From positions 1 to 64,000 of the forward strand of contig NZ_QEKQ01000006.1 of the NCBI RefSeq assembly GCF_003096655.1: a stretch of 64,000 nt of DNA. Reading direction: 5' to 3'. Positions 3,662 through 44,400 of the stretch are shown one piece after another; position 1 is the stretch's first letter; each line of letters starts with the position of its first letter. This DNA comes from Tamilnaduibacter salinus (GTDB lineage: Bacteria; Pseudomonadota; Gammaproteobacteria; Pseudomonadales; Oleiphilaceae). Position numbers and translations under genes: made by a program. Below the pieces are notes generated by a model. That model saw nothing but the letters and a program-made list of their open reading frames with translations. It did not search any database and was not told the origin of the DNA.

Positions 3662-5365
3662 TCAGAACAGGTGGTAGCGTTGGGCCAGCGGCAGTTCCGT
3701 GGCCGGTTCACAGGTGAGCAGTTCGCCGTCGGCGTGGACCTCGTAGGTCTGCGGGTCGACGCTCAGCGTCGGGCAGGCGCTGTTGTGCTTGAGGTCTTTC
3801 TTGCGCACCTGCCGGACGTTCTTGCACGCCACCAGCCGGCTGCTCAGGCCCAGCTCCTCACCGATGTGGGCGTCCAGCGCCGCCTGGCTGACGAAGGTCG
3901 CGCGGGTGGCGGCGGAGGCCTTGCCGTAGGCGCCGAACATGGGCCGGTAGTGGACCGGCTGGGGCGTGGGGATGGAGGCGTTCGGGTCGCCCATGGGCGC
4001 GGCGGCGATCATGCCGGCCTTGAGAATCAGCGCGGGTTTGACGCCGAAGAACGCCGGGTCCCAGAGCACCAGATCGGCCATCTTGCCGACTTCCACCGAG
4101 CCCACTTCGTGCCCGATGCCGTGGGTGATGGCCGGGTTGATGGTGTACTTGGCGATGTAGCGCTTCGCACGCAGGTTGTCCGCGCCGATCTGTTCGTCTT
4201 CGGGCAGCAGGCCGAGCTGGACCTTCATCTTGTGGGCGGTCTGCCAGGTGCGGCAGACGACCTCGCCGACCCGGCCCATGGCCTGGGAGTCCGAGGCGAT
4301 CATGGAGATCACGCCCATGTCCTGCAGAATGTCCTCGGCGGCAATGGTCTCCCGGCGGATGCGCGAGTCGGCGAAGGCGACGTCTTCGGGAATTTTCGGG
4401 TCCAGGTGGTGGCAGACCATGAGCATGTCCAGATGCTCGTCGATGGTGTTCACCGTGTAGGGCCGCGTCGGGTTGGTGGAGGACGGCAGCACATAGTCCT
4501 TCTCGCAGGCGGTCATGATGTCCGGCGCGTGGCCGCCGCCCGCCCCTTCCGTGTGGTAGGTGTGGATGCAGCGTTCCTTGAAGGCCGCCAGCGTGTCCTC
4601 CACAAAGCCGGACTCGTTGAGCGTGTCCGTGTGGATGGCGATCTGCACGTCGAAGCGGTCGGCGACGGTCAGGGCGTTGTCGATTGAGGCCGGGGTGGTG
4701 CCCCAGTCCTCATGGAGCTTGAGGCCCATCGCTCCGGCGCGGATCTGCTGCTCCAGCGGTTCGGCCAGCGAGGCGTTGCCCTTGCCCAGAAAGCCGATGT
4801 TCATGGGCATCTCATCCACGGCTTGCAGCATGCGGCTGATGTGCCAGGTGCCGGGGGTGCAGGTGGTGGCGTTGGTGCCGGTGGCCGGGCCGGTGCCACC
4901 GCCAAGCATGGTGGTGATGCCGCTCATCAGCGCTTCATCCACCAGTTGCGGGCAGACGAAGTGGATGTGGGCGTCCAGCGCGCCGGCGGTGAGGATCTTG
5001 CCCTCACCGGCGATGATCTCGGTGCCCGGACCGATGACGATCTCCACATCCGGCTGGGTGTCCGGGTTGCCCGCCTTGCCGATGGCGGCGATGCGTCCGT
5101 TCTGCAGGCCGACGTCGGCTTTGACGATGCCCCACCAGTCGAGGATCAGGGCGTTGGTGATGACGGTGTCCATCACCGTGTCGTCGGCGCGCTGGCTCTG
5201 GCCCATGCCGTCGCGGATGACCTTGCCGCCGCCGAATTTCACTTCATCGCCGTAGTGGGTGGCGTCGCGTTCCACCTCGATCCAGAGTTCGGTGTCGGCC
5301 AGGCGGACCCGGTCGCCGGTGGTGGGGCCGTACATGTCACTGTAGGCGTCGCGGGAGAGCTTCAT
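3662..5365 (-). CDS. ureC: Urease subunit alpha (catalytic)
   Basis: UreC carries the binuclear nickel centre that hydrolyses urea to ammonia and carbamate. The 567-residue protein has the expected ligands: His-Ile-His at 133-135, the lysine to be carbamylated in GLKLHEDWG (Lys216), His245, [10 protein letters not shown] (His271) and the flap-region motif MVCHHLD. Length equals that of bacterial UreC proteins. Its ATG overlaps the ureB stop by four bases (5362-5365), a coupled arrangement. No missing active-site residue was noticed. Confidence 0.98.
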
Positions 5366-15854: not shown

Positions 15855-16925
15855 TCACATGGGGTCACTGCTCCAGACATAGCGATTCATCAAGTCGCTC
15901 TTGCCGGTGACGCCAAGCTTGTCGTAGAGGTTGTTGACGTGGGTGATGACCGAGTTGCGGGAGATCGCCCAGCGTTCGGCCATGTCATGGAAAGAGGCGC
16001 CTTCGGCCAGCGCGCAGGCCGCCTGCCTCTGGCGTTTCGAGAGGTCCGCATCAAGGATCCGGCGGAACATGCAAAGACCGGCGGGGATGCGGCGGTGGCT
16101 GGTGAGGCCGATCACGCCAGAGTCAAGGAAGCGGTCGAGGGTGAGACGGAATGAGCCCCAGACACTGTCGACCATCATTGACCGCGGCGGGTCTTTCAGC
16201 GTCCTGGCCGCCTGCAACAGCTCCGGGGGAATCCGGAAGTCGAAATTCGCCGGTGTCGTGCCCGGCTCGGTCTGATTCTGCATGGCCAGATGCAGGCGGA
16301 AGGCACGGGTGGCCCGGATCAGGCCGCCGTCGGTGTCCAGCTCCGCCATCCCCGGAGCCACCTCATCCACGCCGGGCACCGCCTCCCGACTCCGGCATTG
16401 CAGGAGCCGGCCGATCAGATCGGCGCCGACATCCAGCGTTTTCAGCTCCGCGTTCGTGTAGGGAGGCGATCCGCCAGGGCGAAAGACCACCAGTCCCCCC
16501 AACGCGGCATCGCCGTGGCTCACCACGCATCGCGCCATGTCGTCGATTCCCCAGGGCGCGAGCATCTGCTGATAGACGTCGGTCCGGCGGAAGGCCTCAC
16601 GGGACATCTGGATGATATCCGTCAGACGCCGGGAGCGGGTCTGACGACGCATCTCCTGGCGGAATGTGGCGCCCGACAAGCTCTCCTCACGGGCGGTGTT
16701 TCCAAACCCCTCAGCGTAGGCTGCCAGCCCCTTTTCAATGCCGATGAGCCGGGAGAAACCACCCGCCACCTCGCCCGTTCCGGACGCCCAGATGAGCATG
16801 CTGCCCATGGTCTGGGGAATGGCGTCCTCCAGCAGATCAAGCGCGTCGGGCACAGCCGCCGCCGGTGCCATGGCGAGCCCGGTCAGTACCTCCAGCCTGT
16901 CACGAATCGCCTTTTCCATTGCCAA
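15855..16925 (-). CDS. LuxR-type transcriptional regulator
   Basis: A 356-residue protein whose last ~65 residues form a LuxR/GerE helix-turn-helix: LSKRQRQAACALAEGASFHDMAERWAISRNSVITHVNNLYDKLGV. The N-terminal ~280 residues have no obvious receiver domain (no phosphoacceptor Asp/Lys set) and look like a large sensory region, possibly GAF-like. It begins four bases after fadH stops, so it is co-transcribed with fadH and probably senses a fatty-acid-related signal; that role is inference. Confidence 0.8.
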   Translation of the reverse strand: MAMEKAIRDRLEVLTGLAMAPAAAVPDALDLLEDAIPQTMGSMLIWASGTGEVAGGFSRLIGIEKGLAAYAEGFGNTAREESLSGATFRQEMRRQTRSRRLTDIIQMSREAFRRTDVYQQMLAPWGIDDMARCVVSHGDAALGGLVVFRPGGSPPYTNAELKTLDVGADLIGRLLQCRSREAVPGVDEVAPGMAELDTDGGLIRATRAFRLHLAMQNQTEPGTTPANFDFRIPPELLQAARTLKDPPRSMMVDSVWGSFRLTLDRFLDSGVIGLTSHRRIPAGLCMFRRILDADLSKRQRQAACALAEGASFHDMAERWAISRNSVITHVNNLYDKLGVTGKSDLMNRYVWSSDPM

Positions 16926-43053: not shown

Positions 43054-43605
43054 TCACACGATCCGTGCACCTGCATCTTTCAGTGTGCCGAGAACCCTGT
43101 TGGTCGCCTCTGGCTCGACCGCGCGTGTGGCGTCCGCAACCAGTTCCACGCCAAACCCTTCGCCCAGGGCGTCATCGACGGTGGCCTGCACGCAGACATC
43201 CAGCGCCAGACCAGCGATGCGTACCTGTTCCACGCCCAGCCGTCGGAGGTAGCCGGACAGCCCGGTGCCATCAAAGGCGGAATAATTGTCCTGATCAAAG
43301 GACGTGCCCTTGCTGACGCGCACGGCATCGTCCGGCAGATCCATCTCCTCGTGGAAGGCGGCACCGTGGCTGTCCTGAATACAGTGCACCGGCCAGGGGC
43401 CACCCCAGGACTCAAAGCTGCAGTGATCGACCGGATGCCAATCCCTGTATGCAATAATCGGCTCGCGGGCTTCCTCGGCCTCGGCAATCAGCCGGTTGAT
43501 GGCTGGAAAGACCGCCTGACTGTCGGGTACAGACAGACTGCCTCCCTCGCAGAAATCATACTGAACATCCACCAGTAACAACGCGGTTTTCGGTGTTGCA
43601 CTCAT
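43054..43605 (-). CDS. pncA: Nicotinamidase
   Basis: Deamidates nicotinamide to nicotinate. The 183-residue isochorismatase-fold protein has the Asp of LLVDVQYDFCEGGSL (about 10-24), the metal-binding YRDWHPVDHCSFESWGGPWPVHCI (about 53-76), the Lys in VSKGTSFDQDNYSAF and the nucleophile Cys in GLALDVCVQATVDDA (about 132-146; many homologues have ALDYCV). GAGG precedes the ATG. Head of the pncA-pncB pair. Confidence 0.94.
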   Translation of the reverse strand: MSATPKTALLLVDVQYDFCEGGSLSVPDSQAVFPAINRLIAEAEEAREPIIAYRDWHPVDHCSFESWGGPWPVHCIQDSHGAAFHEEMDLPDDAVRVSKGTSFDQDNYSAFDGTGLSGYLRRLGVEQVRIAGLALDVCVQATVDDALGEGFGVELVADATRAVEPEATNRVLGTLKDAGARIV

Positions 43606-43711: not shown

Positions 43712-43729
43712 CGTAAGCTTTTTCCTACA
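43712..43729 (+). promoter_or_regulatory. GacA-box-like upstream activating site
   Basis: CGTAAG-N6-CCTACA matches the GacA/UvrY box TGTAAG-N6-CTTACA with one mismatch per half. It lies about 56-73 bases upstream of the inferred start of the GGA-rich RNA at 43785. In Pseudomonas and relatives the response regulator GacA activates rsmY/rsmZ through such sites. Confidence 0.65.
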
Positions 43730-43750
43730 GGCCAGAGGGGCAGTCTCGGA

Positions 43751-43778
43751 TTGGGCTGAGCCTGACGATCCGTACACT
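43751..43778 (+). promoter_or_regulatory. Promoter of the Csr/Rsm-type RNA
   Basis: TTGGGC (43751-43756), 16 bases and TACACT (43773-43778). A weak -35 with a decent -10 is what is expected for an activator-dependent promoter under a GacA box. The start is inferred near 43785. Confidence 0.5.
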
Positions 43779-43784
43779 GATCAT

Positions 43785-44006
43785 CAGCAGGGAGGCAATC
43801 GCAGGAAGCGATAACGGCCACAGGGAATGGGCCGCGCCAGAAGGAATCTGGCACTCAGGGACGATGGCTCGACGGACCGGGCTCGATAGGGACATGAGCG
43901 CCTGATGGACCAGGCAAAAGCCACGGATCGGGTGAACAGGGAGACGTTTACCCGCTTTCCGTGACTTCCCCCGGCAGGGCATGTGTTTCACATGCCCTCT
44001 TTTTTT
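43785..44006 (+). ncRNA. CsrB/RsmZ-family small regulatory RNA
   Basis: About 220 nt with roughly ten GGA motifs (43791, 43804, 43824, 43844, 43859, 43874, 43890, 43907, 43925, 43940). Five sit in loops of strong stems: ATCGC-AGGAA-GCGAT (43798-43812), CGGCC...GGCCG (43815-43834), GCCAGA-AGGAA-TCTGGC (43836-43852), GCCTG-ATGGAC-CAGGC (43900-43915), and CGGGTGAAC with GTTTACCCG around AGGGAGAC (43929-43954). It ends in a strong terminator, AGGGCATGTG with CACATGCCCT and seven Ts (43976-44006). RNAs of this build bind and titrate the translational regulator CsrA/RsmA. No ORF is evident. The GacA-like box and promoter upstream complete the picture. The 5' end is inferred. Confidence 0.85.
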
Positions 44007-44094
44007 GCCCCGCACACGCACTGAGCCCTTCGGATCGCAGCAGTCCGTCACTCCTGAGCCATCCATCAAGGAAAGACAACACAGGAGATCACTC

Positions 44095-44400
44095 ATGACA
44101 TCACTGATCCGCGCCATGCTGATCGTACTGGCTCTCGGCACCGCGCCTGCGATGGCCAACGAGGCCGCATCCGGGTCCGCGGCCGACGACACAACCGCCA
44201 CTGAGGCCATCAACATCAATACGGCCGACGCGGCCACACTGGCCGAACACCTGGACGGCGTCGGTAGCGTCAAAGCAGAAGCGATTGTGTCCTTCCGTGA
44301 GGAGAACGGCCCCTTTGCGTCCGCCCAGGAGCTGACCAACGTTACGGGTATCGGCCCGAAAACCGTGGACGCCAATCAGGCGGGCATGGTCGCCCAATAA
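44095..44400 (+). CDS. ComEA-like helix-hairpin-helix DNA-binding protein
   Basis: A 101-residue protein with a signal peptide (residues 1-21, ending PAMANEA) and, after a short acidic linker, two helix-hairpin-helix motifs: ININTADAATLAEHLDGVGSVKAEAIVSFREENGPFASAQELTNVTGIGPKTVDAN (about 40-95). This is the compact ComEA form of Gram-negative bacteria, a periplasmic DNA receptor in natural transformation, although many relatives have no proven uptake role. ATG at 44095 has AGGAGAT upstream. It lies 88 bases after the Csr-type RNA terminator. Confidence 0.88.
   Translation: MTSLIRAMLIVLALGTAPAMANEAASGSAADDTTATEAININTADAATLAEHLDGVGSVKAEAIVSFREENGPFASAQELTNVTGIGPKTVDANQAGMVAQ

Follow-up and report, generated by a model that had tools for sequence, protein, structure and literature searches.

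A putative CsrA-titrating small RNA upstream of a comEA-like gene in Tamilnaduibacter salinus

Known CsrA-titrating RNAs and the present locus

CsrB/RsmB (RF00018) and CsrC (RF00084) of enterobacteria carry many GGA hairpin loops and an intrinsic terminator and are controlled by BarA/UvrY (GacS/GacA); CsrB of E. coli contains 22 GGA motifs (PMC7652899). RsmX, RsmY and RsmZ of Pseudomonas (RF00166 and others) are GacA-dependent sponges with GGA loops, preceded by a GacA box with the consensus TGTAAG-N6-CTTACA (PMC4353343; PMC4950607). In Xanthomonas, the RsmA-sequestering RNA RsmU is physically linked to a comEA gene, on its 3' side (PMC7694677), and two CsrA sponges were predicted in the marine gammaproteobacterium Alcanivorax dieselolei, CsrR1 derived from a 5' untranslated region and CsrR2 with its own promoter (PMC9788540). 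No description of a Csr/Rsm RNA for Marinobacter was found in the literature searched, most subscription papers lying outside it. Here we analysed 64,000 nucleotides (nt) of Tamilnaduibacter salinus (contig NZ_QEKQ01000006.1, positions 1 to 64,000; the window), in which an unannotated gene upstream of a comEA-like gene very probably encodes a CsrB/RsmZ-like CsrA-titrating small RNA, judging from its sequence and from its counterparts in relatives.

The predicted RNA resembles CsrB and CsrC in its many GGA hairpin loops, its intrinsic terminator, its putative BarA/UvrY (GacS/GacA) control and the expected titration of CsrA, but it is shorter than E. coli CsrB (222 nt with ten GGA), lies at another genomic place, and AAGGA, ACGGA or AGGGA often stands in its loops in place of CAGGA(U/A/C)G. 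With RsmX, RsmY and RsmZ it shares the upstream GacA box, the GGA loops and the likely role of a GacA-dependent sponge, whereas it is longer, richer in GGA and without match to their models; its neighbour is a comEA-like gene, not fdxA/rpoS as for rsmZ or the genes next to rsmY, and in most relatives the right half-site of the box is CKCACA. Unlike RsmU, it lies 5' of the comEA-like gene and has its own GacA-type promoter, and the shared link to comEA need not mean a common origin. CsrR1 and CsrR2 differ in being linked to hfq and a ferredoxin gene, not to comEA. The repeated placement of CsrA sponges beside comEA (5' side here, 3' side in Xanthomonas) raises the testable idea that Gac/Csr signalling is linked to the handling of external DNA.

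Rfam was scanned at gathering and at relaxed thresholds, the latter giving nothing useful. RF00018 gave 13.2 bits (E = 0.17) at the RNA, under its gathering score of 71, and neither the window nor 20 loci contained a gathering-level match to the models for CsrC (RF00084), PrrB/RsmZ (RF00166) and RsmY/RsmX. The initial annotation, made from the sequence, had placed the RNA with CsrB, RsmY and RsmZ; the functional class stands, while no covariance model of CsrB, CsrC, RsmY or RsmZ recognises the RNA. In other words, the functional class is known and the sequence family is new to Rfam. A family of gammaproteobacteria would thereby gain a missing part of its Gac/Csr circuit that no Rfam model detects, and the landmark for finding it is a position upstream of a comEA-like gene, with a GacA box 61 nt before the -10.

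Two other CsrB-type RNAs were observed in the order. One belongs to the same bacterial family as the window (locus L039, about 1501-1700, genome G013) and has repeated GGA hairpins, a -10 of TAGAAT, a strong terminator of its own and 30.1 bits to RF00018; it lies at another locus than the window RNA, and the comEA-like gene of that genome is without the sponge RNA. The other, from another family (L038, about 1240-1760, genome G067), is very rich in GGA, scores 55 bits to RF00018 (cut-off 71) and appears to end beside a tRNA gene.

Promoter, hairpins and conservation

The gene sits in a gap of 489 nt between the start of a pncA-like gene (43605, minus strand) and the ATG of the comEA-like gene (44095, plus strand). 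The 5' end of the RNA was placed from the -10 and its 3' end from the terminator. The elements are as follows, all on the plus strand, with the evidence in brackets.

43712..43729, +, GacA-type upstream activating sequence CGTAAG-CTTTTT-CCTACA (sequence; box in all 40 loci; profile score)
43773..43778, +, -10 hexamer TACACT, beginning exactly 61 nt past the box start (spacing conserved in relatives)
43785..44006, +, predicted CsrA-titrating small RNA, about 222 nt (ten GGA; fold; syntenic counterparts)
43798..43812, +, GGA hairpin atcgc-AGGAA-gcgat (loop test; present in the minimum free energy structure)
43815..43834, +, GGA hairpin cggcc-ACAGGGAATG-ggccg (sequence; the minimum free energy structure pairs the region alternatively)
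43836..43852, +, GGA hairpin gccaga-AGGAA-tctggc (fold; loop test)
43867..43882, +, GGA hairpin gctcg-ACGGAC-cgggc (fold; loop test; competes with 43881..43899)
43881..43899, +, alternative GGA hairpin gctcg-ATAGGGACA-tgagc (loop test)
43900..43915, +, GGA hairpin gcctg-ATGGAC-caggc, counterpart of the family's repeated CCTGAAGGATCAGG unit (fold; loop test; helix 1 of alignment A1)
43922..43966, +, conserved 3' hairpin CCACGGA...CGGGTGAACAGGGAGACGTTTACCCG...TCCGTG with a GGA loop (alignment A1; inner-helix covariation; model R1)
43976..44006, +, intrinsic terminator: 10-bp stem (43976-43998), loop TTT, then C and T7 (44000-44006)

The coordinates and the order of elements in the initial annotation hold. 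Its GacA-like palindrome (CGTAAG-N6-CCTACA) is found at 43712-43729 and is common to the 40 loci compared, its RNA of about 220 nt with some ten GGA is recovered as ten GGA in about 222 nt, and where it had seen five GGA in loops of near-perfect stems we counted seven.

The family consensus of the box is YGTRRG-N6-CKCACA. In the window the -10 begins 61 nt past the box start; 38 of the 39 related loci share this spacing, and the remaining one has 60 nt. The -10 of the relatives is chiefly TAGAAT, TATAAT or TAAACT. Since the box pattern was partly derived from the same sequences, the promoter profile (box plus -10) was built from the relatives with the window excluded, and was scored on both strands of the 64 kb. 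It gives 19.5 bits at 43712, with a runner-up of 1.1 bits on either strand, and the box alone (13.4 bits) is the top score on the plus strand. Across the 3.4 Mb of the genome there is one occurrence of the box plus -10 pattern; the control with the reversed pattern gives two occurrences per strand, and therefore the genome-wide pattern search is not significant by itself. A promoter had also been claimed in the initial annotation, and of this claim the -10 TACACT at conserved spacing was confirmed, while a generic sigma-70 scan detected no promoter at the RNA locus because the -35 is not recognisable, as expected of an activator-dependent promoter. As far as the letters tell, the RNA has its own promoter with an upstream GacA/UvrY site, like other members of the CsrA-titrating class.

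The ten GGA motifs lie in 43791-43942, and seven of them (7 of 10) are displayed in loops of uninterrupted stems, as is typical of the class. With a loop of 4-9 nt and a closing stem of at least 4 bp as the criterion, six GGA are counted, against a mean of 1.66 in shuffled sequences (n = 1000); six were reached in only 3 of the 1000 shuffles and in none of about 12,700 windows taken from either strand elsewhere in the 64 kb. In the seventh (43815-43834), a perfect stem of 5 bp closes a loop of 10 nt. Hairpins 43867-43882 and 43881-43899 share 2 nt and compete with each other. The region from 43785 to 44010 folds with a minimum free energy of -100.1 kcal/mol, compared with -79.4 for the shuffled mean (z = -4.3).

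By protein search, 146 of the 151 genomes in the family have a homologue of the comEA-like protein, and the upstream DNA was read for about 50 of them. The same arrangement (box, -10, GGA-loop RNA and 3' GGA hairpin) precedes the comEA-like gene in 39 other loci, which together with the window span ten of the family's sixteen genera. RNAs of the relatives contain 6 to 34 GGA, largely in copies of the CCTGAAGGATCAGG-type hairpin, followed by the long GGA-loop hairpin. The longest member (L050, genome G040) has about 34 GGA, apparently by tandem multiplication of GGA hairpin units, and another genome (G039) carries two sponge RNA copies (L187 and L194), each with its own comEA-like gene downstream, a duplication of the pair.

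In alignment A1, made of 25 distinct 3' modules including the window's copy, 90% of the cells in the proposed helices are paired, whereas sliding the partners lowers this to 27-44%. Compensating double changes occur in 17 cells (4.9 in shuffles), and this covariation lies in the inner helix, which surrounds the GGA loop. A covariance model of the 3' module (model R1), of which the window's copy is one of the 25 sequences, gives 56.6 bits at the window's 3' hairpin and nothing convincing elsewhere in the genome. Outside the family it gave only two weak matches; these two, and the best of its weak matches elsewhere in the same genome, were read and rejected as unrelated sequence. The initial annotation had proposed comparing the locus among relatives and would have been contradicted by a loss of the GGA loops and stems; both are kept in the 39 related loci. 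Its view that the arrangement is that of a CsrA-titrating RNA gains support from these syntenic loci, the promoter profile, the covariation of the 3' hairpin, and CsrA and GacA being encoded in the genome.

Outside the family, the RNA is absent before the 26 inspected comEA-like genes of other families; one of these has the box only (L196, 1323-1340, TGTAGGAAAAATCGCACA), about 90 nt before the comEA-like gene and without a sponge RNA in the interval, an arrangement suggesting that GacA controls this gene directly. A nucleotide search of plasmids gave no match.

As the CsrA-titrating class would have it, the genome encodes both CsrA and GacS/GacA. CsrA (NF002469, 118 bits, above the curated cut-off) is encoded next to an aspartokinase gene. 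GacA (NF007018) scores 301 bits, over its cut-off of 280, and is encoded next to uvrC, and a full-length BarA/GacS-like kinase scores 854 bits, slightly below the cut-off of 890. By analogy with the known Csr/Rsm mechanism, phosphorylated GacA would bind the box at 43712-43729 and activate the weak promoter (-10 TACACT) from the fixed distance of 61 nt. The transcript of about 222 nt would start near 43785 and end at the terminator near 44006; folding and conservation support a chain of small hairpins with looped GGA together with single-stranded AGGGA and AGGA sites. Several CsrA dimers may then bind the GGA loops and be drawn away from their mRNA targets, so that CsrA repression would be relieved when GacS/GacA is active. 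The RNA looks like the sole one of its kind in the genome: when the genome was searched with the RNA, with the promoter pattern and with the model of the 3' hairpin, this locus alone was found, although a sequence-divergent paralogue could escape them.

Free RNA, comEA leader and other explanations

The main rival to a free sponge RNA sees the RNA chiefly as a 5' leader belonging to the comEA-like mRNA: GacA would drive the gene, and the GGA-rich leader would titrate CsrA and make comEA expression CsrA-dependent, by read-through or processing. The comEA-like gene lies downstream of the RNA in ten genera, the two were duplicated as a pair in one genome, and the GacA-like box of L196 in another family stands directly before a comEA-like gene with a short leader. 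Moreover, the strong terminator noticed in the initial annotation is present in the window and is not general: in most relatives, including one entire genus, a scan of loops up to 8 nt found no intrinsic terminator between the RNA and the comEA-like gene, a scan which terminators with larger loops, such as those made by the large 3' hairpin, could escape. On the other hand, strong terminators part the RNA from the gene in the window and in L151, and in one well-sampled genus conservation drops to background just past the 3' hairpin and stays there until close to the ribosome-binding site of the comEA-like gene; the CsrB-type RNA that a family member has at a different locus (L039) likewise possesses a terminator of its own. 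The intrinsic terminator, a feature of the class, favours a free RNA in the window, and we regard the leader explanation as improbable for this locus. It is also conceivable, though rather doubtful, that in most of the family the sponge RNA is a GacA-controlled 5' leader of the comEA-like mRNA. A single transcript would then titrate CsrA and also put a DNA-uptake-like protein under Gac/Csr control, and the window's terminator would mark a lineage whose leader has turned into a free small RNA.

Four observations weigh against a CsrA-titrating RNA or leave it without added support. No Rfam model of the class attains its cut-off. GGA density alone is unexceptional, with ten GGA reached by 199 of 1000 dinucleotide shuffles (mean 7.9) and by some windows elsewhere in the 64 kb; the GGA count alone was rejected as evidence. 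The centre of the window's box, CTTTTT, departs from the family, where it is mostly ANATNT, and the CCACGG/CCGTG helix, the outer 5 bp in the 3' hairpin, is invariant, which gives no covariation support and is neutral. That composition can reach this count would also fit a GacA-regulated RNA which acts by base-pairing or otherwise and carries its GGA incidentally. But the GGA loops persist in every relative (6 to 34, via multiplication of the CCTGAAGGATCAGG-type hairpin) while the rest of the sequence changes, as predicted for a titrating RNA and not for a base-pairing one, which makes this explanation very improbable. A coding origin, for example as part of a small protein-coding gene such as the antisense frame of 216 codons at 43725-44375, has a negligible chance: this frame is open in the window, but of the 40 loci just 4 are fully open across the region in sense and 6 in antisense, so a coding frame across the RNA was rejected, and the changes follow the RNA helices. 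With no conserved frame and a covarying 3' hairpin, the RNA shows the conserved non-coding structure in relatives that is expected of the CsrA-titrating class.

Neighbouring genes and other features of the window

The two genes flanking the RNA are listed below.

44095..44400, +, comEA-like gene, fixed 3' neighbour of the RNA (TIGR00426, 71.4 bits; PF12836)
43054..43605, -, pncA-like nicotinamidase / isochorismatase-fold gene, divergent upstream neighbour (PF00857; NF008623)

The comEA-like product has a helix-hairpin-helix and a signal peptide-like N terminus. The pncA-like protein scores 137.5 bits to NF008623, under its cut-off of 174, and its gene is a non-conserved neighbour; in relatives the RNA tracks the comEA-like gene instead.

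The sole Rfam match in the window is the 5' ureB small RNA (RF02514, 100.4 bits) at 4933-5219 on the plus strand. This family is antisense to urease genes in Helicobacter, and what it matches here is probably no RNA but a urease gene on the opposite strand, whose coding sequence is conserved. At 15888-16043 on the minus strand, a LuxR-type (GerE) DNA-binding domain was found with 37.2 bits, one of seven in the genome.
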